Origin: Cepaea nemoralis
Taxonomy: Eukaryota; Mollusca; Gastropoda; Stylommatophora; Helicidae
Length of the DNA: 64,000 bases
NCBI GenBank assembly: GCA_014155875.1
Contig: JACEFZ010028140.1
Span: 205,886-269,885, forward strand
Direction of reading: 5' to 3'
A program made the position numbers and the translations under genes. Positions 503-28,334 of this stretch are shown here, piece after piece; position 1 is the first letter of the stretch, and each line of letters begins with the position of its first letter. Under the pieces are notes generated by a model. The model saw nothing but the letters and a program-made list of their open reading frames with translations, was not told the DNA's origin and made no database searches.

Positions 503-2147
503 AGATGCTAGGAAGACCGCAGAGAGAGAACAAACAACTGAAGCGAACATCTCTCTCAAAGCCATCTCAGCAAAATATAAAAGAACAGTAAATCAAACAA
601 CAAGAGATTGTTGGAGGAAAAAAACAGAAAACCTGAATTTTGACAGGGATGGAAACAAACTATGGAAACTAGTGAAAGCCATGAACAATGAAGGACCTAG
701 AAACAAACAAATAACAATTAAACAAGGAAATGCCTTGCTTACAGGAAAAAAGGCTGCAAATGCACTAATGGAACACTATGCCAGTGCAAACCACATTGAT
801 ATTACAGCCGAACAGAAGAAAGCAATCAAAGATAAACAGATACATCATAGATATACAGAGACAGCAGCAGAATATATGATGGCAAATCTAACAATGGAAG
901 AAATGGAACAGGCAATGAATACCCTAAAAAAGAAGAAATCACCAGGAAAGGATGGAATCACAAATGAAATGCTAATAGGACTAGGCACTAAGGCAAAAAA
1001 GAAACTACTAGCAGTCCTAAATTACAGCTGGAAGAGGGGAATAGTCCCACAGGCATGGAAGGAAGCTATACTAATACCAGTCCCAAAGAAAGGAAAAGAC
1101 CTGGAAGAACCAAATGGCTATCGACCTATCAGTCTTCTTAGCTGTGTAGGAAAATTAATGGAACGCATTATCAATGGCAGGCTAACATGGCATCTGGAAG
1201 AAAACCAACTCTTAACACCTCACCAAGCAGGATTCAGAAAGTACAGATCCACTGAAGATCAAATAACCTATATAGCTCAGGAAATAGAGGATGCCTTCCA
1301 AGAGAAAAAGCACACACTAGCGGTCTGGATAGATTTAGAAAAAGCATTTGATAAAGTATGGAAGGAAGGACTGAAAGTAAAACTGCAAAAAATGCATGTT
1401 TGTGGGAAAATGTACAAATGGATCAGCCACTACCTTGAGAACAGAACTGCCAGGACAAAAGTACAAGGACAAACCAGCAAAATGATGCTGTTGGAGCAAG
1501 GTGTCCCCCAAGGAGGAGTTCTTTCACCAACATTATTCCTAGCATATATAAACGACATCACGGAAAATTTTCCAGCCAGAGTACACACATCATCCTTTGC
1601 AGATGACCTAGCCATATGGACATCTGAAGAATATATTAGTACAGCTAACAGCAGAATACAGCAAGCCCTATTAGCGCTAGAGGACTGGTCAAAATCATGG
1701 CTAGTGAAGATAAGTGAGGAGAAAACAACATGCACAGTGTTCTCCCTCTCAACTAAAACTCAGCAACCTAAGCTGGTATTGAATGGAAAAATATTGCGCC
1801 ATGAAGAAAATCCAAACTATCTAGGAGTCACCTTTGATCGTCGCCTGACATGGAAGACACAGGTTGAGAAAAATCGAACAAGAGCAAGGCAAAGAATGGC
1901 AATCATGAAAAAGCTTGCTGGTACAACGTGGGGAGCAGATGAGAAAGTTCTCAAGAAGTTATATACTGGACGGGTGAGGCCAGTACTGGAATATGGCATT
2001 GCAGCTTGGGCAACAGCAGCTAAGTCAAACTTTAACAAAATAAGTAGAGTCCAAAATCAAGGAATGCGAATCATAACTGGAAGCCTGAAGACAACGCCTA
2101 TTAATGAACTTAGAAAAGATCACTTGTTTACAACCAATGCAGGATAG
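486..2147 (+). pseudogene. LINE reverse transcriptase, copy 1
   Basis: A 553-codon open stretch carrying the non-LTR RT domain. Visible motifs in order are YRPISLL (about residue 215), the LTPHQAGFR region, the IDLEKAFDKVW catalytic block (first Asp, about residue 283), GVPQGGVLSP, and the FADD catalytic box (about residue 372, nucleotides near 1,597). The thumb follows, with YLGVTFD and the LEYGIAAW element. The protein would copy LINE RNA at the nicked target. It ends by frameshift near 2,100-2,147, where the same polypeptide continues in another frame. The RT core itself looks uninterrupted, so this copy is fairly young. Confidence 0.88.
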
Positions 2148-2940
2148 AAGAGATAGCAGAGCCCAGCAACAAGCAGAAAAATTTAGAAGATTGACAGACC
2201 ACCCTATGTATAAAAGGTTTAGTGGTTTTGGAAAGGGAAGACTGAAGCGTAGCAACTTTGTAGAAACTGCAAAACGAAAGATTAGGGCAGATCCCATACT
2301 TAACATATCAACAGTCAAACCCATTTACAATGCAGACAAGTTCCCAGCTTGGAGACAGCAGCAACTGCCTGAGATGATAGAAAACATTCCTGGTATTGAG
2401 AAAAAGAACACTCAGCATGAAACCGAAAGAAGAGAAATAACCCTAAACTACATAAAAGAACATTACCCAAGCAGCAATTGGACCCATGCATATACAGATG
2501 GATCAGCCAAAAATTCAATAGAGAATGGAGGAGGAGGAATTCTCCTAAATTTAAAAAATGGAGTGAAAAAAACACATTCAGTGGCAACTGGAAAGTTTTC
2601 AAGTAACTTCAAAGCGGAGGTAGAGGCTCTGAAAACTGCAGCAGAAATGCTCTTGATGGAGGAAAATAAAGAGAAGCAAATAGCTATCTTCACAGATGCA
2701 AAGTCAGCTGTCTCAATACTGAAGAGCAATAACAGCACAGAAATAGCTGACCTAAGAGCAGCACTCCATGGTCTATGCCAGAAATCCAAAAAAGTTGTAA
2801 TACAGTGGATCCCATCACATTGCAGTATACCTGGAAATGAAGAGGCTGACAGACTGGCAAAAGAGGGCGGACGACTACCACAGCCTGACATAGACATAAC
2901 CTATAATGAGGCAAAGAGGTTGATAAAAAGCACCTTATAG
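2104..2940 (+). pseudogene. LINE RNase H domain, copy 1
   Basis: Continuation of the LINE ORF2 in a new frame. RNase H removes the RNA strand during second-strand synthesis. All four blocks can be seen: AYTDGSAKN (first Asp), a KAEVEALKTA helix (Glu), AIFTDAKSAV (Asp), and the WIPSHCSIPGNEEADRLA block (His and final Asp). It ends at a stop at 2,938-2,940 created by a frameshift: copy 2 reads on through the same place into the C-terminal region. The linker before RNase H is rich in charged residues. Confidence 0.88.
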
Positions 2941-3277
2941 AACCAAATGGGAATCAGAGCATCCAGGCCACCAGAAGGATGATGCATATTACAAACTCGA
3001 CCGAAGAGAACAAGTAGCAATCTTCAGACTCCGCACAGGACATAACAGGCTGAAATACCACTTGTTCAATAAACTAAAGATAGGAGATACCGATGAATGT
3101 AATTGTCGAACTGGAAAAATGACAGCAAAACATTTGCTTCAGGATTGCCCAATATATGCAGAACAGAGAAAGATAGTTTGGCCCACACCTGCTTCATTTG
3201 AGGACAAGCTCTATGGAGATATCAACAAGCTCAAGTTGACCGTAGCTTACTTTAACTACATACAGGTTGACATTTAA
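2941..3277 (+). pseudogene. LINE C-terminal zinc knuckle region, copy 1
   Basis: The end of ORF2 after the RNase H frameshift. The frame over about 3,062-3,277 holds CNCRTGKMTAKHLLQDCP, a Cys-x-Cys...His-x4-Cys knuckle usual at the C-terminus of I and Jockey type LINEs, then the closing segment ending in QVDI and a stop. Such knuckles are thought to bind nucleic acid. The same ending recurs in copy 2 at about 6,530-6,733 and, degenerate, near 11,900-12,090 and 12,560-12,727, so this is the authentic ORF2 end. Confidence 0.8.
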
Positions 3278-4080
3278 AGGTGTATGAAGAAGTATTCAGA
3301 CTGCCACACTTCATACCACAGGTATGTCGGTTACAAAGCCTCCCAGAGGCATGAAATGGAATATTGCTGGATAGGAGATCCATTACGTGGAAAGTCCGAA
3401 TCAAAAGCTCACTGTGTGGGCTTTCAAAAAAGGTGGAAAAAAGTGTCCTAGTGGCACGAAATGGAATATTGCTTGGATAGCAAATCCATTACGTGGAAAG
3501 TCCGAATCAAAAGCTCACTGTGTGGGCTTTCAAAAAAGGTGGAAAAAGTGTCCTAGTGGCACGAAATGGAATATTGCTCGGATAGCAAATCCATTATGCG
3601 GAAAGTCCGAATCGAAAGCTCACTGTGTGGATGTCATCTGCACACTGCATTCTTCTGGTTTCCGGAAGAACAGCCTATGGTGAACGGAAGGCCCAATATA
3701 CGGAAGTGAGGCTAAGCAGCCATGTGCAGGACGTGACGATTCCTTGGGTGAGCCCAGTACCAGAGCGCTGTGTGTTGGCTCTGCAAGTATGGAAGCCTCC
3801 TTGGATGGCGGGGAATGCCCATGGTCTGCCCCTGCCTTCCCTTGAGGGCTGACCAGGATGTCTTTGGCTGTTCTATATGGGCCAGCTAGGATGGGAGATA
3901 ACACCACAACAGTGAGAGTCAAACGTCCTAAGAAACCCCCGGGAAGGTTAACCCGGTCAACAAATGCCCGCAGAAGTCGGATGTGTCGGCCTAACGGCGC
4001 AAGAACGCAGCTCTGCTGTAAACAGGCACAACGCAATCACATCCGAAAAAAAAACTCCGGATGAACGAAGAAGAAGAAGA
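3278..4080 (+). repeat. LINE copy 1 3' UTR with 105-bp tandem units and GAA tail
   Basis: Noncoding 3' part. A unit beginning GAAATGGAATATTGC starts at 3,353, 3,458 and 3,563, a 105-bp period with three units, the last leading into the unique 3' UTR. Copy 2 has only one such unit (near 6,810). The conserved 3' end contains AAGTCGGATGTGTCGG and closes with GAACGAAGAAGAAG. Confidence 0.8.
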
Positions 4081-5221
4081 AGAAACAACAAGAGATTGTT
4101 GGAGGAAAAAAACAGAAAACCTGAATTTTGACAGGGATGGAAACAAACTATGGAAACTAGTGAAAGCCATGAACAATGAAGGACCTAGAAACAAACAAAT
4201 AACAATTACAGGAAAAAAGGCTGCAAATGCACTAATGGAACACTATGCCAGTGCAAACCACATTGACATTACAGCCGAACAGAAGAAAGCAATCAAAGAT
4301 AAACAGATACATCATAGATATACAGAGACAGCAGCAGAATATATGATGGCAAATCTAACAATGGAAGAAATGGAACAGGCAATGAATACCCTAAAAAAGA
4401 AGAAATCACCAGGAAAGGATGGAATCACAAATGAAATGCTAATAGGACTAGGCACTAAGGCAAAAAAGAAACTACTAGCAGTCCTAAATTACAGCTGGAA
4501 GAGGGGAATAGTCCCACAGGCATGGAAGGAAGCTATACTAATACCAGTCCCAAAGAAAGGAAAAGACCTGGAAGAACCAAATGGATATCGACCTATCAGT
4601 CTTCTTAGCTGTGTAGGAAAATTAATGGAACGCATTATCAATGGCAGGCTAACATGGCATCTGGAAGAAAACCAACTCTTAACACCTCACCAAGCAGGAT
4701 TCAGAAAGTACAGATCCACTGAAGATCAAATAACCTATATAGCTCAGGAAATAGAGGATGCCTTCCAAGAGAAAAAGCACACACTAGCGGTCTGGATAGA
4801 TTTAGAAAAAGCATTTGATAAAGTATGGAAGGAAGGACTGAAAGTAAAACTGCAAAAAATGCATGTTTGTGGGAAAATGTACAAATGGATCAGCCACTAC
4901 CTTGAGAACAGAACTGCCAGGACGAAAGTACAAGGACAAACCAGCAAAATGATGCTGTTGGAGCAAGGTGTCCCCCAAGGAGGAGTTCTTTCACCAACAT
5001 TATTCCTAGCATATATAAACGACATCACGGAAAATTTTCCAGCCAGAGTACACACATCATCCTTTGCAGATGACCTAGCCATATGGACATCTGAAGAATA
5101 TATTAGTACAGCTAACAGCAGAATACAGCAAGCCCTATTAGTGCTAGAGGACTGGTCAAAATCATGGCTAGTGAAAATAAGTGAGGAGAAAACAACATGC
5201 AGTGTTCTCCCTCTCAACTAA
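4061..5221 (+). pseudogene. LINE reverse transcriptase, copy 2
   Basis: An open stretch of 386 codons, the first few from the GAA tail of copy 1. It carries the same RT blocks as copy 1: YRPISLLSC, the IDLEKAFDKVW catalytic block, GVPQGGVLSP, and FADD near 5,065-5,080. It ends after ...TTCSVLPLN because two bases are missing relative to copy 1 near 5,200. The downstream part (thumb, YLGVTFD, LEYGIAAW) continues in another frame over 5,181-5,561. A fusion with no proper start and a frameshift: nonfunctional. Confidence 0.85.
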
Positions 5222-7318
5222 AACTCAGCAACCTAAGCTGGTATTGAATGGAAAAATATTGCGCCATGAAGAAAATCCAAACTATCTAGGAGTCACCTTT
5301 GATCGTCGCCTGACATGGAAGACACAGGTTGAGAAAAATCGAACAAGAGCAAGGCAAAGAATGGCAATCATGAAAAAGCTTGCTGGTACAACGTGGGGAG
5401 CAGATGAGAAAGTTCTCAAGAAGTTATATACTGGACGGGTGAGGCCAGTACTGGAATATGGCATTGCAGCTTGGGCAACAGCAGCTAAGTCAAACTTTAA
5501 AAAAATAAGTAGAGTCCAAAATCAAGGAATGCGAATCATAACTGGAGACAACGCCTATTAATGAATTAGAAAAGATCACTTGTTTACAACCAATGCAGGA
5601 TAGAAGAGATAGCAGAGCCCAGCAACAAGCTGAAAAATTTAGAAGATTGACAGACCACCCTATGTATAAAAGGTTTAGTGGTTTTAGAAAGGGAAGACTG
5701 AAGCGTAGCAACTTTGTAGAAACTGCAAAACGAAAGATTAGGGCAGATCCCATACTTAACATATCAACAGTCAAATCCATTTACAATACAGACAAGTTCC
5801 CAGCTTGGAGACAGCAGCAACTGCCTGAGATGATAGAAAACATTCCTGGTATTGAGAAAAAGAACACTCAGCATGAAACCGAAAGAAGAGAAATAACCCT
5901 AAACTACATAAAAGAACATTACCCAAGCAGCAATTGGACCCATGCATATACAGATGGATCAGCCAAAAATTCAGTAGAGAATGGAGGAGGAGGAATTCTC
6001 CTAAATTTAAAAAATGGAGTGAAAAAAACACATTCAGTGGCAACTGGAAAGTTTTCAAGTAACTTCAAAGCGGAGGTAGAGGCACTGAAAACTGCAGCAG
6101 AAATGCTCTTGATGGAGGAAAATAAAGAGACGCAAATAGCTATCTTTACAGATGCAAAGTCAGCTGTCTCAATACTGAAGAGCAATAACAGCACAGAAAT
6201 AGCTGACCTAAGAGCAGCACTCCATGGTCTATGCCAGAAATCCAAAAAAGTTGTAATACAGTGGATCCCATCACATTGCAGTATACCTGGAAATGAAGAG
6301 GCTGACAGACTGGCAAAAGAGGGCGGACGACTACCACAGCCTGACATAGACATAACCTATAATGAGGCAAAGAGGTTGATAAAAAGCACTTATAGAACCA
6401 AATGGGAATCAGAGCATCCAGGCCACCAGAAGGATGATGCATATTACAAACTCGACCGAAGAGAACAAGTAGCAAACTTCAGACTCCGCACAGGACACAA
6501 CAGGTTGAAATACCACTTGTTCAACTAAACTAAAGATAGGAGATACAGATGAATGTAATTGTGGAACTGGTAAAATGACAGCTAAACATTTGCTGCAAGA
6601 GTGCCCAATATATGCAGAACAGAGAAAGATATTTTGGCCCACACCTGCTTCATTCGAGGACAAGCTCTATGGAGATATCAACAAGCTCAAGTCGACTGCA
6701 GCTTACTTTAACTGTATTCAGGTTGACATTTAAATGTACATGAAGAAGTATTTAGACTGCCACACTTCATACCACAGGCATGTCGGTTACACAAGCCTCC
6801 CAGAGGCATGAAATGGAATATTGCTTGGATAGCAAATCCATTACGTGGAAAGTCCGAATCGAAAGCTCACTGTGTGGATGTCATCTGCAAACTGCATTCT
6901 TCTGGCTTCTGGAAGAACAGCCTATGGTGAACGGAAGGCCCAATATACGGAAGTGAGGCTAAGCAGCCATGTGCAGGACGTGACGATTCCTTGGGTGAGC
7001 CCAGTACCAGAGCGGTGTGTGATGGCTCTGCAATTATGGAAGCCTCCTTGGATGGCGGGGAATGCCCATGGTCTGCCCCTGCCTTCCCTTGAGGGCCGAC
7101 CAGGATGCCTTTGGCTGTTCTATATGGGCCAGCTGGGATTGGAGATAACACCACAACAGTGAGAGTCTAACGTCCTAAGAAACCCCCGGGAAGGTTAACC
7201 CGGTCAACAAATGCCCGCAGAAGTCGGATGTGTCGGCCTAACGGCGCAAGAACGCAGCTCTGCTGTAAACAGGCACAACGCAATCACGTCCGAAAAAAAA
7301 CTCTGGATGAACAAAGAA
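4081..7318 (+). mobile_element. I-like LINE copy 2, 5'-truncated, head-to-tail with copy 1
   Basis: Nearly identical to copy 1 from the position equivalent to about 598 onward, starting inside the GAA tail of copy 1. Differences seen: a 21-bp in-frame deletion near 4,208, a 2-bp deletion near 5,200 and an 8-bp deletion near 5,548 (both break the frame), and a premature stop near 6,528. Its 3' UTR ends in a short GAA tail at about 7,308-7,318. A tandem of a long and a truncated copy fits insertion of one LINE into the tail of another, or unequal exchange between copies. Confidence 0.82.
5593..6528 (+). pseudogene. LINE RNase H domain, copy 2
   Basis: Same product as 2,104-2,940 and longer, because the frameshift after RSRIKSTL in copy 1 is absent. 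It reads from the linker through AYTDGSAKN, KAEVEALKT, IFTDAKSAV and the WIPSHCSIPGNEEADRLA block into the region before the zinc knuckle, and stops at 6,526-6,528. The knuckle (Cys-Asn-Cys ... His ... Cys) lies just downstream in another frame at about 6,550-6,610. Confidence 0.87.
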
Positions 7319-9573: not shown

Positions 9574-10310
<737 letters not shown>

Positions 10311-13680: not shown

Positions 13681-13804
13681 CACACAGTCTCTAATAAGTA
13701 CCAGGTCCTGGAACAATTAGTAGAGGGAGAGAGTACAGAAGATTACTGCCAACTAGCTAATGACATTTGGAGCAAACGACGTATGCAGTTACAGAAATTT
13801 ATAG

Positions 13805-15262
13805 CTAAAGACATGAGAAGCTAAAGACATGTGAAGCTAAAGACACGTGGAGCTAAAGACATATTGAGCTAAAGACATGTGAAGCTATAGACATGTGGAG
13901 CTAAAGATATCTGAAGCTAAAGACATGGGAAGCTAAAGACATGTGGAGCTAAAGACATGTGGAGCTAAAGACATGTGAAGCTAAAGACATGTGGAGCTAA
14001 AGACATGTGGAGCTAAAGACACGTGAAGCTAAAGACATGTGAAGCTAAAGACACGTGGAGCTAAAGACATGTGAAGCTAAAGACATGTGGAGCTAAAGAC
14101 ATGTGCAGCTAAATACATGTGGAGCTAAAGACATGTGGAGCTAAAGACATGTGAAGCTAAAGACATGTGAAGCTAAAAACATTTGGAGTTAAAGACATGT
14201 GAAGCTAAAGACATGTGACGCTAAAGACATGTGAAGCTAAAGACATGTGAAGCTAAAGACATGTGAAGGTAAAGACATGTGAAGCTAAAGACATGTGAAG
14301 CTAAAGACATTTGGAGTTAAAGACATGTGAAGCTAAAGACATGTGAAGCTAAAGACATGTGAAGCTAAAGACACGTGGAGCTAAAGACATGTGAAGCTAA
14401 AGACATGTGAAGCTAAAGACATGTGAAGCTAAAGACATGTGAAGCTAAAGACATGTGGAACTAAAGACACGTGGAGCTAAATACATATGGAGCTAAAGAC
14501 ATGTGAAGCTAAAGACATGTGGAGCTAAAGGCATGTGGAGCTAAAGACATGTGGAGCTAAAGACATGTGGAGCTAAAGACATGTGAAGCTAAAGACATGT
14601 GGAGCTAAAGACATTTGGAGTTAAAGACATGTGAAGCTAAAGACATGTGATGCTAAAGACATGTGAAGCTAAAGACATGTGAAGCTAAAAACATTTGGAG
14701 TTAAAGACACGTGAAGCTAAAGACATGTGACGCTAAAGACATGTGAAGCTAAAGACATGTGAAGCTAAAGACATGTGAAGCTAAAGACATGTGAAGCTAA
14801 AGACATTTGGAGTTAAAGACATGTGAAGCTAAAGACATGTGAAGCTAAAGACATGTGAAGCTAAAGACATGTGAAGCTAAAGACATTTGGAGTTAAAGAC
14901 ATGTGAAGCTAAAGGCATGTGAAGCTAAAGACATGTGAAGCTAAAGACATGTGAAGCTAAAGACATTTGGAGTTAAAGACATGTGAAGCTAAAGGCATGT
15001 GAAGCTAAAGACATGTGAAGCTAAAGACATGTGAAGCTAAAGACATTTGGAGTTAAAGACATGTGAAGCTAAAGACATGTGAAGCTAAAGATATGTGAAG
15101 CTAAAGACATGTGAAGCTAAAGACATGTGAAGCTAAAGACATTTGGAGTTAAAGACATGTGAAGCTAAAGGCATGTGAAGCTAAAGACATGTGAAGCTAA
15201 AGACATGTGGAGCTAAAGACATGTGGAACTAAAGACACGTGGAGCTAAAGACACGTGGAGCG
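13805..15262 (+). repeat. 16-bp satellite, about 90 copies, with 80-bp higher order
   Basis: Tandem array of AGCTAAAGACATGTGR. A variant unit (ACATTTGGAGTTAAAG) recurs at 14,180, 14,308, 14,612, 14,692, 14,804, 14,884, 14,964, 15,044 and 15,140. All spacings are multiples of 16, four of them exactly 80 bp. No coding potential. No RNA gene signs. Confidence 0.95.
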
Positions 15263-17982: not shown

Positions 17983-17988
17983 TGGGTG
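17983..17988 (+). repeat. target-site duplication, left (TGGGTG)
   Basis: TGGGTG immediately before the inverted-repeat end AGTAGTAAGGG. The same six bases follow the other end at 28,329-28,334. The surrounding TTGG-type repeat makes a chance match more likely than in random DNA. Confidence 0.6.
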
Positions 17989-18110
17989 AGTAGTAAGGGA
18001 TGCGACTTACACACGTATTTTGACATCCATTATGGCGGCTGATGGCGGGTAATGGCGGGTAATAGTTTTTTTTTGGGGCCGGGTGATTTTTGGCGGGTAA
18101 AATCCCGGGT
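17989..18110 (+). repeat. GC-rich end of element A with GGCGGGTAA words
   Basis: Repeated (G)GCGGGTAA-type words at 18,030-18,110 with homopolymer T runs, just inside the terminus. The mirror at 28,200-28,328 is about 98% the same by eye, with differences mainly in T and G run lengths. It could be a transposase or integrase recognition region. Confidence 0.6.
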
Positions 18111-18419
18111 CTATTTTTTTGGGGAAAATCTGTGAAAGTAATTAAGGTTGGTCTATTTTTTTGGTGGGAACGGTGTGAAATATTTTTGGCTGGTAAGTGT
18201 GAAAGTAAATAGTGGGAAAGTGTATGAAGGGCTGAAGGGAAAGTTATTTTGGTTACGTAGGGTATATTAGTATGTGTGGCGGCGTGATGTATAAACTGGC
18301 AAGGATGTGACGGGTCGGTACCAAGTGTGTTAAGTGTGGGGTGATAGTAGTGTCTTAGTGAAATTAAAGGGTGGCTTCTTCACCGAAATAAAGTTGTAAT
18401 GGATTTGATGGTAAGGGGT

Positions 18420-18770
18420 ATTAGTGGTCAAGTAGTAGTGGTCGATATAGGGGTGGTCATAAATGTAATAAGAGGTGTTATGTTCACAGTTACACACTGG
18501 TCAACCAGTGGTCAAGCAATGGTCAAGTGGTCAAGTAAGGAAATTTTAAGGAAAAATGATTGTAACGATATGGTGATGCTTAAAGGGTGGTAAATTAGTG
18601 GTCAAGCAGTGGTCAAGTGGTGGTCAAGTAGTGGTCAAGTGGTCGAGTGACCACTTAAATTGTAGAGGACGATGTGCCTAAGATTATGGTAGTGGTTAAA
18701 GTGATCGATGACGTGGTCAAGCAGTGGTCAAGCAGTGGTCAAGTAGTCGAGTGACCACTTAAATTGTAGG
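18420..18770 (+). repeat. GTGGTCAAG iteron-like array with hairpin
   Basis: More than a dozen imperfect copies of GTGGTCAAG(T/C)A, including a perfect hairpin at 18,637-18,656 (AAGTGGTC, loop GAGT, GACCACTT). A second run at 18,710-18,765 repeats the GAGTGACCACTTAAATTGTAG segment. Confidence 0.75.
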
Positions 18771-18899
18771 GGAAAGTACGTATAGTGCAATGGTGATGGG
18801 TAAAGTGAGGAGGAATCACTAGTAGTGATAATAGTACTACCAATATTAGCGATAAGAATATTAGCTGGTGCGTTGTTAGAGATACAAGTCTCTTTTTTA

Positions 18900-19650
18900 T
18901 GGGGTGTGTAAAAATCATACAAAGAGGGTCATACAACCATAAAGACAGCCAAGTACACACGCACACACAACCACAAAGACAGACAAGTACAAGTACAGAC
19001 AAGTATACAAGTACACACATACAGACACAGAAGTACAAACAACCCATACCATTACTACTGTCACAACAACAGCTATACACAAGTACACACCCATAATCAA
19101 ATACACAAAGAGGGTCACACAAACACACATACAAACACAAAGACAACCATACACAGACAACCCATACCATTACTACTGTCATCACAACTATACACACATA
19201 CAGACACGTGTACACACATACAAACACAAAGTCAACCACACACAGCCATAAACAACCACTCAAGTACAGACCCATAATCAATTACACAAATACACACCTA
19301 CTACAAACTCAAAGACACACCCAAACCATTACCACTGTCATCACAAGTACACACAAGTACTCACCCATAATCAATTACACAAATACACATACAAACTCAA
19401 AGACACACACCCATCTCCTACCATTACTACTGTCATCACAAGTACACACAAGTACACACCCATAATCAATTACACAAATACACACCTACTACAAAAACAC
19501 ACCCATACCATTACTACTGTCAGCACAAGTACACACAGACACACCCGTACACACTTGATACACTTGTACATACAGACCTACAAGCACACAAAAACACACC
19601 CATACCATTACTACTGGTACCACAACCAGTACAGATACACTCACCCATAA
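18900..19650 (+). repeat. CA-rich minisatellite
   Basis: Imperfect long repeats: CATACCATTACTACTGTCA recurs six times (about 19,046 to 19,610), with CCCATAATCAATTACACAAA between. The peptide-like open frames here (poly-Thr/His or, reversed, poly-Val/Cys) are repeat shadows. Confidence 0.8.
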
Positions 19651-19714
19651 ACAAATCGTGTCCCTACAAGAATATCACAAACCATAAATTTTTGGTAAAG
19701 AACGCGGATGTCCG

Positions 19715-19860
19715 AGACAGCCCCTACGTCATCAACGCCATATGCAAAAGTAATTAAGTATGAGTCATCGGTGTGTAGGGAAGCAGGCGGGCGGCGTGAG
19801 AATAACTTGTCTAACTGCCACGTCAGCTACGTCGTGTGCAGAACCAGTGTATAAAATAGA
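19715..19860 (+). promoter_or_regulatory. TATA promoter of the left zinc-finger gene
   Basis: A TATAAAATA box at 19,850-19,858, preceded by TGAGTCAT (19,761-19,768, AP-1/TRE type), ATGCAAAAG (19,742-19,750) and several ACGTCA/ACGTCG words (19,726, 19,822 and 19,830 regions; CRE-like). Transcription would start near 19,880. The same cluster lies reversed in the other arm. Sites are matched by eye. Confidence 0.6.
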
Positions 19861-19886
19861 CAGCGTCTCTTGTGAGCTCAGTACCA

Positions 19887-20190
19887 GTTCACGGGCTGAC
19901 TTGGCTAGCTACAGCAGTGAAACAGGTTGATGTGAGCAGTGTTAGTGTAGTAACCAGATATTGTTCACGTAGTGACTTGGCTAGCTACAGAGGTGAAACA
20001 GGTTGATGTGAGCAGTGTTCGTGTAGTAACCAGATATTGTTCACGTAGTGACTTGGCTAGCTACAGAGGTGCTTCAGGCTGGTGTGAGCATTGTTCGTGT
20101 AGTAACCAGATATTGTTCACGTACTGACTTGGGTAGCTACAGCGGTGAAACTTGGTTTGAGCCTTATTCGTGTCGTTGGCATTTGATAAA
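19887..20190 (+). repeat. four 76-bp direct repeats in the 5' leader
   Basis: TGACTTGGCTAGCTACAG starts at 19,897, 19,973, 20,049 and 20,125, exactly 76 bp apart, each followed by ...GTGAGCA(G/T)TGTT and GTAGTAACCAGATATTG. They lie between the TATA box and the ORF, so they would be in the 5' UTR or an intron. Confidence 0.88.
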
Positions 20191-20257
20191 ACAGTGAAAC
20201 ATATATTGTAAGAAAGAAAAAACAACTGAAAGTGTGACTTGTGACCAGTTTATCGAT

Positions 20258-20593
20258 ATGACCACCAGATCTACTTTCACGTGTTCAGTGTGCTACAAAG
20301 CCTATTGTGATAAGTATACCCTTAATCGTCACATTCGGACCATTCACGAGGGGAAAGACCAAATATATCTCTGTCAGTTATGTGATAAGGTGTATAATAC
20401 GAACGATGGCCTACAAAAACACAAACGAATACGTCATCAGCCACGTATGAATACACCAAACACTACAATACCAGAGACGACAGCACCACCTGTCTATTTA
20501 CACCAGCCTCGTAGTCTAACGCAAGTACCAGACTGCCACCACTGTATCTTCAATGATAACCTTACCCGCCATAATAGGGAACATTCACAATGA
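20258..20593 (+). CDS. C2H2 zinc-finger protein, left copy (111 aa)
   Basis: From the first ATG (20,258) this reads a small protein with two good Cys2His2 fingers: FTCSVCYKAYCDKYTLNRHIRTIH, split as C-x2-C...H-x4-H (residues about 7-30), and CQLCDKVYNTNDGLQKHKRIRH (about 37-58). A Thr/Pro-rich spacer follows, then a shortened third finger (CHHCIFNDNLTRHNREH, near the C-terminus). It probably binds DNA in the nucleus, perhaps the element's own repeats; that is inference. It lies behind a TATA promoter and four 76-bp repeats. The same protein is encoded unchanged in the right arm. An alternative is that it is the first exon of a longer protein joining the ORF just downstream. Confidence 0.75.
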   Translation: MTTRSTFTCSVCYKAYCDKYTLNRHIRTIHEGKDQIYLCQLCDKVYNTNDGLQKHKRIRHQPRMNTPNTTIPETTAPPVYLHQPRSLTQVPDCHHCIFNDNLTRHNREHSQ

Positions 20594-20857
20594 TTATCCC
20601 TGTCAGATTACGTGACCAATCTATACAATTCGAACCTACAACGGTACTTACATCACCAGACATCACGAGAAAGGATGACACCCTTAGACACCCTGGCAAC
20701 ACCTCCACTCATAGTAGCAGAGGATATCCAACCAAATGATAGAGACAGCTTGGCAGCCCTTAAGGCGTACTGCAAGGACCTATCGCTTATGCTACCCAAT
20801 CAAGTGGTAGTATTAGAAAAAAGTGTCGACCACCGCTATCGGGTGGTTTTGGTATGA
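20553..20857 (+). pseudogene. unrecognised downstream ORF, left copy (frame-broken)
   Basis: The right arm has an intact 100-codon ORF here (25,340-25,642) whose ATG overlaps the zinc-finger ORF end by about 40 bases in another frame. In the left arm two extra bases near 20,608-20,615 bring a TGA stop after 20 codons, and the rest is open only from 20,612 to 20,857. The common part reads ...RDSLAALKAYCKDLSLMLPN..., helical, no family recognised. It may be a second protein or the C-terminal exon of the zinc-finger protein. Confidence 0.4.
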
Positions 20858-21019
20858 TAAAAAGAAGTATTCAGATATCTTGTATGATATCTCATACATG
20901 TCTTTATTCTGGATCCGAAACAAATAAGGTATGTGTGATGACTTCGACAACAACAGTGTTTTTGATAGTCAACCAGCAGAGCCCAGAAGAATGAAGATCA
21001 CTAATCCAGAACTTTTTGG

Positions 21020-21372
21020 TTTTTCACTAAGCATGTATGTCATTGATTTTTTCTTATATCATTAAAGTGCTTTTCACTACTCATCTATGTCATTGATTTT
21101 TTCTTATATCACTAAAGTGTTTTTTCACTAAGCATGTATGTCATTGATTTTTTCTTATATCATTAAAGTGCTTTTCACTACTCATGTATGTCATTGATTG
21201 TTTCTTATATCACTAAAGTGTTTTTCACTAACCATCTATGTCATTGATTTTTTCTTATATCATTAAAGTGTTTTTCACTACTCATCTATGTCATTGATTT
21301 TTTCTTATATCTCTAAACTGTTTTTCACTACTCATGTATGTCATTGATTTTTTCTTATATCACTAAAGTGTT
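21020..21372 (+). repeat. seven 50-51-bp tandem repeats
   Basis: Unit CACTAAGCATGTATGTCATT + GATTTTTTCTTATATCATTA + AAGTGTTTTT repeated about seven times with small changes (CTACTCAT for CTAAGCAT). The mirror array at 24,820-25,170 has different unit variants, two with an extra TATATCATA, so the arrays have turned over independently. Confidence 0.88.
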
Positions 21373-21824
21373 TTGATGAATAACACACATATTTTGGTGA
21401 TAAAAATATTGAAATCAAGTTTTTTGTTGATTTTCTTTATTGGTTTTGTTTTCATGACGTTGTCTTGTCGGCTCAGAGCTTACATTACCAGACATGAACA
21501 AAGTCTTAGAAGAAGTTATGGCAAATACAGAACAGTCAAATGTATAAAAAAAACCTAGGAAAAAATAACCAAAGGCGAAAAGGCCAAAATACGAAATGTC
21601 TCGACCAAGCTTATAAATATTACAACTAAAAGGTTGATCAAAAATTATAAATTCAAACATTATAAAAATAACCAAATATGAAAAACATCGTCCAAAGACA
21701 GAAATATTTCAACTAAACTTATAAATAAGTCACCAAAAGGGAAAAGGTCAAGTACAGAAATAGCTATGGAAAAAGTAAGTCCACAAAACTAAGAAAGAAA
21801 AAAATGTAACTTCTGTAGTCAAAT

Positions 21825-22166
21825 GTGTCTTATCTGAAAAGACGCTATCAATGTCACCCCTTTCCTTGTTTTACTTTACCAAAGACCTTCACCGTATCTG
21901 GTACAGAAACCCTTATACAGCACTCATCTCTCCACACTCTTGGTATCTTTCTAATACAAAGTGGTTACATCACCAAGAACTTCAAACCTCAATTGTACAC
22001 GTGCTCCATTGAAACACCCATGACAGTTAACAACATGTATGGCCATGTAATCTGTGAGTCCATCGGGGATAGTTCATCCGAGTATTCGTCACCAAAGATC
22101 CATTTCCCATGGCTGACATCTTCAACTCGCTATACCACAACTTATTCTAATATACACTTTACATGA
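21825..22166 (+). CDS. hypothetical 113-codon ORF, left copy
   Basis: Open frame found almost unchanged in both arms (two residue differences). It has no good start (GTG at the 5' end, no early in-frame ATG) and no family I know. It contains Cys-Phe-Thr and Ser-rich segments and a GDSSSEYSSPK stretch. Arm homogenisation alone could explain the conservation, so coding status is doubtful. Confidence 0.25.
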   Translation: MSYLKRRYQCHPFPCFTLPKTFTVSGTETLIQHSSLHTLGIFLIQSGYITKNFKPQLYTCSIETPMTVNNMYGHVICESIGDSSSEYSSPKIHFPWLTSSTRYTTTYSNIHFT

Positions 22167-22326
22167 AATTTCCCAAATTTGGGATCTATTAAAGAATACG
22201 TAATGAGATACACAAAGACACCAAGAACATATCAGACAAAACAACTCACAAACTAAAAACGAATACCATATCAGATGAACCAGCCAACAACTACTACTAG
22301 AACACAAACATATAATAAGGAAACAC

Positions 22327-22611
22327 ATGACACACAGAGCTTACAGACAAATCACTTGGACTCAAACAAATTTTGCTTCTTGTACTGTAGAATTCTACCA
22401 ACACTTCTTTCCTATCACCAAAACTAAACATCTACCACACAACCACTGGTCATTTGTCCAACATAATACTCATACCTTCGCCAACGACATTAAGGAAACG
22501 AATACTTACACATTGTCAGACATTGGATTTAAATCCCATACTACTAACATATCACCGGTGTCGAATTCCCCTGTTTCACAAAAACACCCTCTTGTCAGTT
22601 GTTACTGCTGA
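22327..22611 (+). CDS. hypothetical 94-codon ORF across the left arm/loop junction
   Basis: ATG at 22,327. The first about 58 codons lie in the inverted repeat and match the ORF at 23,624-23,860 on the other strand (HNHWSFVQHNTHT); the C-terminal part differs because it enters the loop. No family recognised. It may be part of the 5' exon or leader of the loop gene. Confidence 0.25.
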   Translation: MTHRAYRQITWTQTNFASCTVEFYQHFFPITKTKHLPHNHWSFVQHNTHTFANDIKETNTYTLSDIGFKSHTTNISPVSNSPVSQKHPLVSCYC

Positions 22612-22768
22612 AAACCATTACACCAGTCCATAATTGTTACTCCTGGAACCAACACTCACACTGTCGTATCTGTAGTATGAGTATGCGATCAGAGATTCTT
22701 CTATAGAATCACATTGTAATCCTAACGTTGACACTTGTTTTAAAGACGTTTTAACCTACTTGTTTAAA

Positions 22769-22793
22769 ACTTTTTTCACCTTCCATTCATCAG
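22769..22793 (+). promoter_or_regulatory. possible 3' splice acceptor before the loop gene
   Basis: Pyrimidine-rich CTTTTTTCACCTTCC followed by ATTCATCAG and then GTACAATG. It would allow a noncoding or short first exon from the left arm to join just 5' of the ATG at 22,799. Alternative: the frame simply reads through. Confidence 0.4.
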
Positions 22794-22798
22794 GTACA

Positions 22799-23627
22799 AT
22801 GACAGCTTTAATTGATAGACGGACATCGTGGTCAGAAGATGAGGATTGTTGTGAAGATGACAGTGTTTTGAAGGAGGATGATTCTGGCTTCTTCACACCA
22901 GCTTTATCATTAGACATTTTGTTCTGCCAGAAACCTACTCGTGGCACCCAGCCAGCTTTAGATGTACCAGAGACAACCTTTGCTTGGGGTGATGATTCGT
23001 CTTCTGATGAAGATATTGACCTTTTGGCTAGTAGTCATGCCCCAGAGTCTCTCAAGAAAATTAATGTATTGTGGAACGAAAAATATCCTACTGATGGTGT
23101 CGGAAGGTGTTCCTCTTCAACGAATAAGGTGTGTATGGGTAGTAATGAGCATAATTCACATGTGTATTTTTGTAAACATAACCAATATCAAAGACCTAGG
23201 TGCTATACATGTTTTCTATGTACATCTCTCTATACCACAAACCATCAGTGACTATACCTTTACCCTTTCTCAAGGCGTGACCAAAAGAATGTCGACAGTC
23301 TGTTTTTATGCCTTTTACCACTTCTCATTGTGAATTTTTTACTGTTTATTTCTTTACTGAAGTAGTAGGTATTGCAGTCTTGTAAGTTTCAATGTGTTTT
23401 ATTTACCTCCACAGGTTAATTTTGCACCAGAACCTCATTTCTTGACAGTCCATACTGTTGGCAACGAAGAACGCAATGGTAACTGGCATCATGTAATCAG
23501 AGAACGTGAGAATTTTGAAAGCCGTATACTAGACTTGGAAAAAATTTTGAACCCAGTCCTGAAGGACAACCACAGAAGAAAAGTCATCGAACAAAGGACA
23601 GCAGTGAAGAAGGCAGCTGTAGTCTAA
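22799..23627 (+). CDS. PPP1R15/GADD34-like PP1-targeting protein (two exons)
   Basis: Exon 1 is 22,799-23,128 (110 codons) and exon 2 is 23,415-23,627 (70 codons and stop). The intron of 286 nt is phase 0, with donor AAG|GTGTGT and acceptor TTTACCTCCACAG. Exon 1 is acidic, with WSEDEDCCEDDS and FAWGDDSSSDEDIDLL, resembling the acidic Trp-containing repeats of PPP1R15. The splice places Lys before Val-Asn-Phe, completing a KVxF PP1-docking motif that neither exon has alone. Exon 2 continues with the family's pattern: HFLTVHTV, then Trp, RER, Phe, RI and ILNPVL in the spacing of GADD34, CReP, ICP34.5 and DP71L. Such proteins bring PP1 to phosphorylated eIF2-alpha and restore translation. At 180 residues it is much shorter than vertebrate PPP1R15 and closer to viral forms. 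A captured host gene and a host locus trapped between repeats are both possible. Confidence 0.7.
23129..23414 (+). other. intron of the PPP1R15-like gene
   Basis: GTGTGTATG donor, TTTATTTACCTCCACAG acceptor, AT-rich body. Reading through is open for a while (to 23,251), then stops. Removing it gives the correct phase and completes the docking motif, which is the best evidence for splicing. Confidence 0.65.
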
Positions 23628-23860
23628 TTAGCATGTATATCTCTCTGCCCTATTAAAAGAGTTATAACCAGAAATAAACTAGTATGCGTTTCCTTAATGT
23701 CGTTGGCGAGGGTATGAGTATTATGTTGGACAAATGACCAGTGGTTGTGTGGTAGATGTTTAGTTTTGTTGATAGGAAAGAAGTGTTGGTAGAAGTCTAC
23801 AGTACAAGAAGCAAAATTTGTTTGAGTCCAAGTGATTTGTCTGTAAGCTCTGTGTGTCAT
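23624..23860 (-). CDS. hypothetical 78-codon ORF across the right arm/loop junction
   Basis: Mirror of 22,327-22,611 for the arm part, with a different end in the loop. ATG start. Same doubts as its left partner. It runs toward the end of the PPP1R15-like gene and overlaps its last bases on the opposite strand. Confidence 0.2.
   Translation of the reverse strand: MTHRAYRQITWTQTNFASCTVDFYQHFFPINKTKHLPHNHWSFVQHNTHTLANDIKETHTSLFLVITLLIGQRDIHAN
23673..23678 (+). terminator. poly(A) signal AATAAA of the loop gene
   Basis: AATAAA 46 bases after the stop of exon 2 and only nine bases before the right inverted repeat begins. The transcript would end at the loop edge. Confidence 0.6.
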
Positions 23861-24020
23861 GTGTTTCCTTATTATATGTTTGTGTTCTAGTAGTAGTTGT
23901 TGGGTGGTTCATCTGATATGGTATTAGTTTTTAGTTTGTGAGTTGTTTTGTCTGATATGTTCTTGGTGTCTTTGTGTATCTCATTACGTATTCTTTAATA
24001 GAGCCCAAATTTGGGAAATT

Positions 24021-24362
24021 TCATGTAAAGTGTATATTAGAATAAGTTGTGGTATAGCAAGTTGAAGATGTCAGCCATGGGAAATGGATCTTTGGTGACG
24101 AATACTCGGATGAACTATCCCCGATGGACTCACAGATTACATGGCCATACATGTTGTTAACTGTCATGGGTGTTTCAATGGAGCACGTGTACAATTGAGG
24201 TTTGAAGTTCTTGGTGATGTAACCACTTTGTATTAGAAAGATACCAAGAGTGTGGAGAGATGAGTGATGTATAAGGGTTTCTGTACCAGATACGGTGAAG
24301 GTCTTTGGTAAAGTAAAACAAGGAAAGGGGTGACATTGATAGCGTCTTTTCAGATAAGACAC
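24021..24362 (-). CDS. hypothetical 113-codon ORF, right copy
   Basis: Mirror of 21,825-22,166 with two residue changes. No in-frame ATG near the start and no recognised family. Confidence 0.25.
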   Translation of the reverse strand: MSYLKRRYQCHPFPCFTLPKTFTVSGTETLIHHSSLHTLGIFLIQSGYITKNFKPQLYTCSIETPMTVNNMYGHVICESIGDSSSEYSSPKIHFPWLTSSTCYTTTYSNIHFT

Positions 24363-24511
24363 ATTTGACTACAGAAGTTACATTTTTTTCTTTCTTAGTT
24401 TTGTGGACTTACTTTTTCCATAGCTATTTCTGTACTTGACCTTTTCCCTTTTGATGACTTATTTATAAGTTTAGTTGAAATATTTCTGTCTTTGGACGAT
24501 GTTTTTCATAT

Positions 24512-24847
24512 TTGGTTATTTTTATAATGTTTGAATTTATAATTTTTGATCAACCTTTTAGTTGTAATATTTATAAGCTTGGTCGAGACATTTCGTATTT
24601 TGGCCTTTTCGCCTTTGGTTATTTTTTCCTAGGTTTTTTTTATACATTTGACTGTTCTGTATTTGCCATAACTTCTTCTAAGACTTTGTTCATGTCTGGT
24701 AATGTAAGCTCTGAGCCGACAAGACAACGTCATGAAAACAAAACCAATAAAGAAAATCAACAAAAAAACTTGGTTTCAATATTTTTATCACCAAAATATG
24801 TGTGTTATTTATCAAAACACTTTAATGATATAAGAAAAAATCAATGA
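24512..24847 (+). other. hydrophobic open frame, probably not coding
   Basis: An AT-rich stretch open for 111 codons (mirror on the minus strand at 21,415-21,675 is 86 codons). Phe/Ile/Tyr-rich at first, then a polar SGNVSSEPTRQRHENK segment. No ATG at the frame start. The hydrophobic run could be a membrane segment, but base composition explains it equally well. Confidence 0.2.
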
Positions 24848-25170
24848 CATACATGAGTAGTGAAAAACAGTTTAGAGATATAAGAAAAAATCAATGACAT
24901 ACATGAGTAGTGAAAAACAGTTTAGAGATATAAGAAAAAATCAATGACATACATGATTAGTGAAAAACAGTTTAGTGATATAAGAAACAATCAATGACAT
25001 AGATGCTTAGTGAAAAACACTTTAGTGATATAAGAAACAATCAATGACATAGATGCTTAGTGAAAAACACTTTAGTGGTATATCATAAGAAAAAATCAAT
25101 GACATTCATGATTAGTGAAAAACAGTTTAGTGATATATCATAAGAAACAATCAATGACATAGATGATTAG
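24820..25170 (-). repeat. 50-bp tandem repeats, right copy
   Basis: Mirror of 21,020-21,372, about seven units. Two units have an added TATATCATA. Unit variants are not in the same order as on the left. Confidence 0.88.
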
Positions 25171-25339
25171 TGAAAAACCAAAAAGTTCTGGATTAGTGAT
25201 CTTCATTCTTCTGGGCTCTGCTGGTTGACTATCAAAAACACTGTTGTTGTCGAAGTCATCACACATACCTTATTTGTTTCGGATCCAGAATAAAGACATG
25301 TATGAGATATCATACAAGATATCTGAATACTTCTTTTTA

Positions 25340-25642
25340 TCATACCAAAACCACCCGATAGCGGTGGTCGACACTTTTTTCTAATACTACCACTTGATTG
25401 GGTAGCATAAGCGATAGGTCCTTGCAGTACGCCTTAAGGGCTGCCAAGCTGTCTCTATCATTTGGTTGGATATCCTCTGCTACTATGAGTGGAGGTGTTG
25501 CCAGGGTGTCTAAGGGTGTCATCCTTTCTCGTGATGTCTGGTGATGTAAGTACCGTTGTAGGTTCGAATTGTATAGATTGGTACGTATCTGACAGGGATA
25601 ATCATTGTGAATGTTCCCTATTATGGCGGGTAAGGTTATCAT
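25340..25642 (-). CDS. unrecognised 100-aa ORF overlapping the zinc-finger gene, right copy
   Basis: Intact here, ATG at 25,642 inside the last 41 bases of the zinc-finger ORF but in another frame. It reads MITLPAIIGNIHNDYPCQ, then ...RDSLAALKAYCKDLSLMLPN and ends RYRVVLV. No known domain. The overlap allows either coupled translation of a second protein or a spliced extension. The left copy is broken by two bases. Confidence 0.4.
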   Translation of the reverse strand: MITLPAIIGNIHNDYPCQIRTNLYNSNLQRYLHHQTSRERMTPLDTLATPPLIVAEDIQPNDRDSLAALKAYCKDLSLMLPNQVVVLEKSVDHRYRVVLV

Positions 25643-25937
25643 TGAAGATACAGTGGTGGCAGTCTGGTACTTGCGTTAGACTACGAGGCTGGTGTAAATA
25701 GACAGGTGGTGCTGTCGTCTCTGGTATTGTAGTGTTTGGTGTATTCATACGTGGCTGATGACGTATTCGTTTGTGTTTTTGTAGGCCATCGTTCGTATTA
25801 TACACCTTATCACATAACTGACAGAGATATATTTGGTCTTTCCCCTCGTGAATGGTCCGAATGTGACGATTAAGGGTATACTTATCACAATAGGCTTTGT
25901 AGCACACTGAACACGTGAAAGTAGATCTGGTGGTCAT
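25602..25937 (-). CDS. C2H2 zinc-finger protein, right copy (111 aa)
   Basis: Same protein as 20,258-20,593: two full Cys2His2 fingers, a Thr/Pro-rich linker and a short third finger. The predicted sequence is identical in both arms although flanking noncoding DNA differs, so either the copies were recently homogenised or the protein is under selection. It reads outward from the loop toward 23.7 kb, convergent with the left copy. Function unknown; DNA binding is inferred from the fingers. Confidence 0.75.
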   Translation of the reverse strand: MTTRSTFTCSVCYKAYCDKYTLNRHIRTIHEGKDQIYLCQLCDKVYNTNDGLQKHKRIRHQPRMNTPNTTIPETTAPPVYLHQPRSLTQVPDCHHCIFNDNLTRHNREHSQ

Positions 25938-26009
25938 ATCGATAAACTGGTCACAAGTCACACTTTCAGTTGTTTTTTCTTTCTTACAATATATGTTTCA
26001 CTGTTTTAT

Positions 26010-26325
26010 CAAATGCCAACGACACGAATAAGGCTCAAACCAAGTTTCACCGCTGTAGCTACCCAAGTCAGTACGTGAACAATATCTGGTTACTACACGA
26101 ACAATGCTCACACCAGCCTGAAGCACCTCTGTAGCTAGCCAAGTCACTACGTGAACAATATCTGGTTACTACACGAACACTCCTCACATCAACCTGTTTC
26201 ACCGATGTAGCTAGCCAAGTCACTACGTGAACAATATCTGGTTACTACACGAACACTGCTCACATCAACCTGTTTCACTGCTGTAGCTACCCAAGTCAGC
26301 CCGTGAACTGGTACTGAGCTCACAA
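26010..26325 (-). repeat. 76-bp leader repeats, right copy
   Basis: Mirror of 19,887-20,190, four units with CTGTAGCTA(G/C)CCAAGTCA at 76-bp spacing. Minor unit differences from the left. Confidence 0.85.
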
Positions 26326-26337
26326 GAGACGCCGTCT

Positions 26338-26480
26338 ATTTTATACACTGGTTCTGCACACGACGTAGCTGACGTGGCAGTTAGACAAGCTATTCTCACG
26401 CCTGCTTCCCTACACACCGATGACTCATACTTAATGACTTTTGCATATGGCGTTGATGACGTAGGGGCTTCTCGGACATC
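26338..26480 (-). promoter_or_regulatory. TATA promoter of the right zinc-finger gene
   Basis: Reverse TATA box at 26,339-26,347 (TATTTTATAC on the + strand), then reverse ACGTC words, the AP-1-like ATGACTCA at 26,420-26,427 and TTTTGCAT at 26,440. The mirror of 19,715-19,860 is almost unchanged. Confidence 0.6.
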
Positions 26481-26539
26481 CGCGTTCTTTACCAAAAATT
26501 TATGGTTTGTGATATTCTTGTAGGGACACGATTTGTTTA

Positions 26540-27290
26540 TGGGTGAGTGTATCTGTACTGGTTGTGGTACCAGTAGTAATGGTATGGGTGTGTTTTTGTG
26601 TGCTTGTAGGTCTGTATGTACAAGTGTATCAAGTGTGTATGGGTGTCTACTTGTGCTGACAGTAGTAATGGTATGGGTTGTCTTTGAGTTTGTAGTAGGT
26701 GTGTATTTGTGTAATTGATTATGGTGAGTGTGTACTGTGTATGTTGTCTTGTAGTTGATGACAGTAGTAATAATACGAGTGGTGTGTCTTTGAGTTTGTA
26801 GTAGGTGTGTATTTGTGTAATTGATTATGGGTGATGTACTTGTGTATAGTTGTGATGACAGTACTAATGCTAGGCGATGGGTGTGTGTCTTTGAGTTTGT
26901 AGTAGGTGTGTATTTGTGTAATTGATTATGGGTCTGTACTTGAGTGGTTGTTTATGGCTGTGTGTGGTTGACTTTGTGTTTGTATGTGTGTACACGTGTC
27001 TGTATGTGTGTATAGTTGTGATGACAGTAGTAATGGTATGGGTTGTCTGTGTATGGTTGTCTTTGTGTTTGTATGTGTGTTTGTGTGACCCTCTTTGTGT
27101 ATTTGATTATGGGTGTGTACTTGTGTATAGCTGTTGTTGTGACAGTAGTAATGGTATGGGTTGTTTGTACTTCTGTGTCTGTATGTGTGTACTTGTATAC
27201 TTGTCTGTACTTGTACTTGTCTGTCTTTGTGGTTGTGTGTGCGTGTGTACTTGGCTGTCTTTATGGTTGTATGACCCTCTTTGTATGATT
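26540..27290 (-). repeat. GT-rich minisatellite, right copy
   Basis: Mirror of 18,900-19,650. TGACAGTAGTAATGGTATGGG recurs (GTCACAGTAATGG-type variants) with local rearrangements against the left. The long open frame of Val/Cys/Leu is a repeat shadow. Confidence 0.8.
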
Positions 27291-27429
27291 TTTACACACC
27301 CCACAAAAAAAGAGACTTGTATCTCTAACAACGCACCAGCTAATATTCTTATCGCTAATAATGGTAGTACTATTATCACTACTAGTGATTCCTCCTCACT
27401 TTACCCATCACCATTGCACTATACGTACT

Positions 27430-27900
27430 TTCCCCTACAATTTAAGTGGTCACTCGACTACTTGACCACTGCTTGACCACTGCTTGACCACGTCATCGAT
27501 CACTTTAACCACTACCATAATCTTAGGCACATCGTCCTCTACAATTTAAGTGGTCACTCGACCACTTGACCACTAATTGACCACCACTTGACCACTGCTT
27601 GACCACTAATTTACCACCCTTTAAGCATCACCATATCGTTACAATCACTTTTCCCTAAAAATTCCTTACTTGACCACTTGACCATTGCTTGACCACTGCT
27701 TGACCAATAATTTACCACCCTTTAATCACCACCATATCATTACAATCACTTTTCCCTAAAATTTCCTTACTTGACTACTTGACCCTTACTTGACCATTGC
27801 TTGACCACTGGTTGACCAGTGTGTAACTGTGAACATAACACCTCTTATTACATTTATGACCACCCCTATATCGACCACTCTTACTTGACCACTAATACCC
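27430..27900 (-). repeat. CTTGACCAC iteron-like array, right copy
   Basis: Mirror of 18,420-18,770. Somewhat longer, with an additional unit (27,700-27,790) repeating TTTACCACCCTTTAA...TTTTCCCTAAAA. Confidence 0.75.
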
Positions 27901-28328
27901 CTTACCATCAAATCCATTACAACTTTATTTCGGTGAAGAAGCCACCCTTTAATTTCACTAAGACACTACTATCACCCCACACTTAACACACTTGGTACCG
28001 ACCCGTCACACCCTTGCCAGTTTATACATCACGCCGCCACACATACTAATATACCCTACGTAACCAAAATAACTTTCCCTTCAGCCCTTCATACACTTTC
28101 CCACTATTTACTTTCACACTTACCCGCCAAAAATATTTCACACCGTTCCCACCAAAAAAATAGACCAACCTTAATTACTTTCACAGATTTTCCCAAAAAA
28201 AATAGACCCGGGATTTTACCCGCCAAAAATCACCCGGCCCCCCCAAAAAAACTATTACCCGCCATTACCCGCCATCAGCCGCCATAATGGATGTCAAAAT
28301 ACGTGTGTAAGTCGCATCCCTTACTACT

Positions 28329-28334
28329 TGGGTG
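28329..28334 (+). repeat. target-site duplication, right (TGGGTG)
   Basis: Follows CCCTTACTACT directly and matches 17,983-17,988. Confidence 0.6.

Follow-up and report, generated by a model that had tools for sequence, protein, structure and literature searches.

An intact two-exon PPP1R15-descended gene carried by a probable non-autonomous relative of Maverick/Polinton elements in Cepaea nemoralis

Introduction

Free viruses are known to use homologues of PPP1R15 as tools. Foldback/Galileo-type elements have very long inverted repeats, which contain tandem repeats and enclose a small loop, and FB elements make a 9-bp duplication. Here we describe a stretch of 64,000 nucleotides from Cepaea nemoralis (the window, which closes a contig of 269,885 bases; the genome measures 3.47 Gb), where a two-exon PPP1R15-type gene stands alone in the loop of a 10.3-kb element (17989-28328) with inverted arms of about 4.5 kb. 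We consider it probable that this element is a high-copy, non-autonomous relative of Maverick/Polinton elements, and that the intact PPP1R15-descended gene it carries restarts translation for the element.

Conservation in the PPP1R15 family is described as confined to a C-terminal core of about 70 residues that lies on its own exon (PMC4394352, PMC8500838, PMC7615683), and in cells this core alone is reported to suffice for damping the stress response (PMC4394352). The residues considered here as touching PP1, actin, and eIF2alpha are those given in the same three papers (PMC4394352, PMC8500838, PMC7615683). For Mavericks, the commonest ends in vertebrates are reported to be (AGT)2//(ACT)2, with 6-bp duplications (PMC8097293).

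Results

A two-exon gene with a PPP1R15-type core

The gene consists of the following parts:

22799..23128, + strand: exon 1 of the PPP1R15-type gene, 110 codons, ATG start
23129..23414, + strand: intron, GT..AG, 286 nucleotides, phase 0, GTGTGT...CCACAG, splicing predicted
23415..23627, + strand: exon 2, PPP1R15 core domain, 70 codons plus TAA stop
23673..23678, + strand: AATAAA, possible polyadenylation signal, beginning 46 bases past the stop

The best two matches of exon 2 in PDB (177,635 distinct sequences) were PPP1R15B (E 0.017) and DP71L (E 0.035). Against PPP1R15B, 13 of 51 ungapped positions were identical, and none of 20,000 shuffles reached this number (maximum 11). The 70 codons of exon 2 also reproduce a feature of the PPP1R15 family, a core on its own last exon. 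The final codon of exon 1 is Lys, which predicted splicing places directly before V-N-F of exon 2 to give K-V-N-F. These findings agree with the preliminary description of this locus, which had read exon 2 as a PPP1R15-type core and had proposed that removal of the 286-nucleotide intron supplies a missing Lys. Its expectation of a domain match was borne out in part: exon 2 alone matched Pfam PF10488 at E 0.01 over the last 45 positions of the profile, but its 16 bits fell below the curated cut-off of 26.1. That cut-off was passed nowhere in the whole genome, the host's own gene included. At E 0.001 the profile was silent in the whole genome and in 14 control genomes, and relaxing the threshold to E 10 yielded 35 weak places in the genome (best E 0.8), which led to the host gene and to other subfamilies. 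No relative of exon 1 or exon 2 was found among public proteins, exon 1 alone had no Pfam match, and exon 2 had no match in IMG/VR.

We then counted contact residues in 55 rows of the window type, which represent 52 distinct places, because three elements are each represented by both a small and a large locus. Numbering according to PPP1R15A was carried over through an alignment on the conserved Trp, and this mapping is our own. Apart from the phi-phi positions, the PP1 contacts checked, namely the RVxF residues V641 and F643 together with R658 and W662 of PPP1R15B, were present and invariant in 55/55 rows. The equivalents of PPP1R15B F672 and I676 were likewise unchanged in every row, as were the actin contacts F592, R595, and R612 of PPP1R15A. 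At the PP1 phi-phi positions, Y650 was replaced by V in 55/55 rows and I652 by T in 53, with I in the other 2. In an alignment by eye, the linker was 2 residues longer than in PPP1R15B, both in the element gene and in the host gene.

Both exons were open from end to end in 20 of the 30 best-ranked loci. Among these 30, the intron had its full or nearly full length in 28, was partial in 1 and absent in 1. Because the intron is kept in 28 of 30 copies, the gene spread as DNA, in line with the capture as DNA put forward in the preliminary description. A retroposed copy was ruled out by the retained intron.

A diverged PPP1R15-type copy, L093 (C25762:418401-418930), has a 180-residue open frame that runs into the exon-2 part, so the stretch preceding this part differs from that of other copies.

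The element and its ends

The gene lies within an element composed of the following parts:

17983..17988, + strand: target-site duplication TGGGTG, left copy
17989..17994, + strand: left end AGTAGT
17989..22506, + strand: left inverted arm, a terminal inverted repeat that contains tandem repeats; outside these, its blocks are 96.8-100% identical to the right arm
20207..20854, + strand: C2H2 zinc-finger frame of the left arm, interrupted
21819..22166, + strand: conserved 115-residue open frame adjoining the loop, left arm, no Pfam match
22507..23680, + strand: loop between the arms, 1,174 bases
23681..28328, - strand: right inverted arm, from the arm comparison
24021..24368, - strand: 115-residue open frame adjoining the loop, right arm
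25343..25988, - strand: C2H2 zinc-finger frame of the right arm, interrupted
28323..28328, + strand: right end ACTACT
28329..28334, + strand: target-site duplication TGGGTG, right copy

The element ends in AGTAGTAAGGGATGCG and CGCATCCCTTACTACT, and TGGGTG flanks both. Because the flanks are TGGT-rich, we checked the chance of equal 6-mers between them, which was 14 of 3,025 offset pairs. A search of the genome with the first 500 bases of the element gave 1,661 first-look candidates, the best 40 of which were scored, and nine further elements were read besides that of the window. Since two of these, on C3466 and C26317, occupy one insertion site, the elements represent 9 distinct sites, the window included. 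The 6-bp target-site duplication was exact at 8/9 sites and matched in 5/6 bases at the remaining one, C3370. ACTACT was present at 10/10 right ends and AGTAGT at 9/10 left ends, with only the first base changed in the other. The arms recur with different target duplications, which ruled out an assembly fold-back as their origin.

The gene had been described as the sole gene between mobile-element arms. It is indeed alone in the loop, but the arms proved to be the two inverted repeats of one element and are not free of genes, because each holds an interrupted C2H2 zinc-finger frame and the conserved 115-residue frame. The suggestion of element-borne or viral-type carriage was supported by the Maverick/Polinton ends, which belong to a virus-like class, and by the virus-like genes of elements with the same ends.

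Two element classes with one end type

Five complete elements have a PPP1R15-type loop (the window, C9879, C26207, C3370, and C4821), with arms of 4.0-5.5 kb. C4821 has a damaged copy of the gene, and C26207 lacks exon 1 and contains retrotransposon-type frames in its loop. A second class with the same ends comprises C3466, C26317, C15861, C21231, and C25273, whose inverted ends measure about 0.9-2.4 kb. A Pfam scan of 18 frames from four of these five elements revealed an rve integrase with a chromodomain (E 7e-12), an adenovirus-type protease in both frames scanned (E 3.6e-6), a C2H2 zinc-finger protein, and a BCL-2 homologue (E 3e-12; PDB Bcl-2, E 7e-7). An ATPase-like protein gave weak matches under the cut-off (best E 2e-4) in the one element scanned for it. 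The BCL-2 frame of 189 residues was found in all five elements, 97.8-100% alike, and lies in two pieces in C15861; the BCL-2 homologue loci are L041, L043, L045/L046, L047, and L057. A frame of 450 residues had no Pfam match and no significant match in PDB or IMG/VR. Neither PPP1R15-type exon matched the five second-class elements at E 1e-3, and integrase, packaging ATPase, protease, and polymerase are absent from the window element itself.

The two classes resemble each other in their arms. Over the first 2.5 kb or so of the window arm, the main blocks are about 75-95% identical to second-class ends, and bases 2683-3244 of the arm are 94% identical to C25273. The N-terminus of the zinc-finger protein is common to both classes: in eight of ten pairings it is 55-73% identical, and in the other two 40%. 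These similarities suggest that the window class either arose from the second class as a fold-back derivative or is its sister.

A genome-wide integrase search gave 18,201 first-look candidates, and the best 114, which were scored, all had at least 96% identity. Among the matches listed, integrase was present at 4/5 second-class places, C21231 not being among them. PolB was found at no fewer than 90 places on 87 contigs (at least 90; 90 of 96 rows used, the other six being further fragments of listed frames), with frames of up to 1,409 residues, for example on C9089 and C19005. Two convergent pairs of PolB places lie 4-6 kb apart. Among the matches listed, no PolB place lies within 30 kb of the 114 integrase places, and of the 287 exon-2 places described below, 0 lie within 15 kb and 1 within 40 kb of an integrase or PolB place. 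No arm homology was found in the 2 kb beyond PolB at C25635.

Copy number and the host's own gene

A genome search with exon 2 gave 1,058 first-look candidates; the best 150, which were scored, were 90-100% identical, and 147 of them had no stop. The union of two listings contained at least 287 exon-2-like places on 254 contigs, comprising the host gene and 286 others; element structure was read for a few of the 286, and allelic contigs were possibly counted twice. C3466 (L041/L042) and C26317 (L043/L044) carry an element at an identical insertion site with identical flanks. This shared site indicates that the assembly probably keeps both haplotypes, so that copy counts may be inflated. Among the best 150 of 877 candidates, 19 of 20 neighbouring exon-2 pairs were convergent and 2.0-11.7 kb apart.

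An exon on C23742 was taken as exon 2 of the host PPP1R15 gene, exon 2 being the part located. It scored 132.8 bits against itself and 82.4 against the next place (66% identity), and this gap in score sets it alone of its kind among the best 150 of 877 candidates. It matched PDB PPP1R15B at E 4.5e-5 and one public protein at 86%. No recognisable exon 1 was found within 2 kb upstream, so the host intron is probably longer than 2 kb. The separate gene on C23742 ruled out the window locus as the host's own gene; the preliminary description had named a sole host PPP1R15 as the finding that would count against it. It had also proposed a comparison with the host gene that included intron position. 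The two positions coincide: in both C23742 and the element gene the acceptor falls on an identical codon boundary. A tree built from 25 short rows fits an old capture as well as a donor from another lineage.

Selection and age

We compared nonsynonymous and synonymous substitution rates (dN and dS) in exon 2. In 7 of 8 inter-subfamily pairs, dN/dS was 0.23-0.34 at dS 0.28-0.57 (window-L081, window-L087, window-L094, L081-L088, L081-L094, L087-L094, and L095-L087); the count of eight leaves out L095 and L093 against the window. Fisher tests on four inter-subfamily pairs gave p 0.0002-0.0005, with site counts taken from the window exon and with branches shared among the pairs. A dN/dS of 0.069 from 32 exon-2 copies was not used because it is biased, 30 of the copies having been chosen as best-ranked by protein similarity. 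Subfamily counts were made on 13 of 16 loci, leaving out L083 (host) as well as L084 and L091, which lack an acceptor where one was expected; the 13 include L087, L093, and L095, although the tree places these three with the window type. We read these ratios as a core constrained over the history of the element lineages, with recent copies decaying. Between element and host gene, dS was at least 1.8 or saturated, which means that the capture is old or that the donor came from another lineage.

The rest of the window

The window is eukaryotic nuclear DNA, as shown by frames for reverse transcriptase of the type without long terminal repeats (non-LTR) and RNase H and by long simple repeats. Two tandem copies of a non-LTR-type retroelement, 97% identical and with reverse transcriptase and RNase H frames, occupy 408-7160. 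Simple arrays lie at 9578-10309 (ACT-type, 732 bases) and 13803-15253 (16-base unit, 1.45 kb). A palindrome of about 36 kb extends from 28374 to 64000, where the contig ends, and is centred on a (TA)n run at 46159-46200. Identity between its arms is mostly 97-99% and about 90% towards the outer end. The palindrome may be genuine or may be an assembly artefact produced by fold-back. ARAGORN found no tRNA in the window, and Rfam gave no match there at gathering scores.

Discussion

If the element family works as we think probable, the window element would be a fold-back derivative in which sequence from the end of an integrase-bearing element makes up both inverted arms and so encloses the small loop. 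Relatives that encode the integrase would move it in trans. The loop would be transcribed and the transcript spliced. The protein would then dock PP1 through K-V-N-F and Arg20 and recruit G-actin through Phe34, Arg37, and Arg54. Phosphorylation of eIF2alpha would be reversed, and translation would continue during replication of the element family, while the BCL-2 gene carried by the same-ended elements that bear an integrase would hold back apoptosis.

Several observations weigh against this account. Two eIF2alpha contacts of PPP1R15A were replaced in 55/55 window-type rows, R591 by Asn (54) or His (1) and R594 by Ser (55), and the host gene has both of these arginines, though it is without R587. 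The PF10488 score of exon 2 lies under the curated cut-off. One inter-subfamily pair, L088-L094, had a dN/dS of 0.51, close pairs with the window gave 0.41-1.02, and 20 lower-ranked exon-2 copies gave 0.41, with 15 of 200 random placements as low. For exon 1, the corresponding ratio (pN/pS, 22 ungapped copies) was 0.63 in the true frame and 0.47 in a wrong frame; since the wrong frame is lower, exon 1 shows no constraint. No element read has both the PPP1R15-type gene and the virus-like genes. No polymerase frame was found in the elements read; the longest frame in the five second-class relatives has 450 residues and PolB frames elsewhere reach 1,409, so these five hold no polymerase of the size seen elsewhere in the genome.

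The replaced arginines make retargeting possible. A PP1 subunit that kept PP1 and actin and lost its preference for eIF2alpha would act on another substrate or, as a decoy, compete with host PPP1R15. The unvarying PP1 and actin contacts of the window type fit this as well, as does the replacement of R591 in 13/13 rows of the other element genes. We nevertheless hold such a subunit to be unlikely. R587 was kept in 54/55 window-type rows and in 13/13 rows of the other element genes, though the host gene is without it, and R594 was also kept in those 13/13 rows. Because R587 is kept and R594 is kept in the other element genes, the eIF2alpha contact may be rebuilt rather than lost. As R587, R591, and R594 are not all present, we name the element protein for its ancestry: its sequence marks it as a homologue of PPP1R15 by descent but does not prove it to be a subunit of an eIF2alpha phosphatase.

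The gene might instead be a passenger that was swept into the element and is carried without function, looking intact because the copies are young. The weak or missing constraint in close copies and in exon 1 would agree with this, and so would the fact that both exons are open in just 20 of the 30 best-ranked loci. Against it stand the low inter-subfamily dN/dS at considerable dS, significant in four branch-sharing pairs, and the invariance of the PP1 and actin residues in 55/55 rows, and we regard a functionless passenger as improbable. An ordinary host PPP1R15 locus, or arms produced by fold-back in assembly, is very improbable: the 36-kb palindrome at the contig end makes artefacts conceivable in this assembly, but on other contigs the arms, loop, and gene are found again, flanked by different 6-bp duplications, and a separate, single-scoring host gene exists.

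The account that we favour, an element-borne gene that restarts translation, could be part of something larger. Integrase, protease, packaging, and BCL-2 functions, the PP1-recruiting stress suppressor, and a DNA polymerase might be divided among separate units with the same ends, forming a virus-like system whose units would spread jointly like the segments of a multipartite virus, with host-control genes split over them. We put this forward as a doubtful, though conceivable, extension.

In C. nemoralis the PPP1R15 homologue resides in a Maverick-ended element of the genome, with gene copies in the hundreds and a BCL-2 homologue in elements with the same ends. A narrow check of the open-licence literature did not find PPP1R15 reported from any transposon or Polinton. 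If the gene is active, mobile elements, too, acquire genes from the host as a means to override stress arrest and cell death. It would also be a case in which a gene with an intron was spread as DNA, and the host's own gene in this genome allows the two to be compared.

Comparison with known systems

Like Foldback/Galileo-type elements, the window element combines a small loop with very long inverted repeats that contain tandem repeats, but its ends and 6-bp duplication are of the Maverick type. With Maverick/Polinton elements (polintoviruses, adintoviruses) it shares (AGT)2//(ACT)2-type ends, 6-bp duplications, and inverted repeats, and its same-ended relatives have an rve integrase, an adenovirus-type protease, and an ATPase, the last weak and under the cut-off. 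It differs from them in arms of 4.0-5.5 kb, compared with the published 46-1,447 bp, and in a loop with one host-type gene; the element lacks integrase and polymerase, and the relatives read lack a polymerase.

The gene resembles the PPP1R15 family (GADD34/CReP; a single PPP1R15 in invertebrates) in its core of about 70 residues on its own exon, in K-V-x-F, in the Arg and Trp of the PP1 contact, and in the Phe, Arg, and Arg of the actin contact. Unlike that family, it is present in many copies on a mobile element, its exon 1 resembles nothing known, and two eIF2alpha-contact arginines are replaced. As in the viral PPP1R15 homologues of herpesviruses, asfarviruses (DP71L), and a granulovirus, the protein is small and cut down to the core; unlike them, the element gene retains its intron, and its carrier is resident in the genome.
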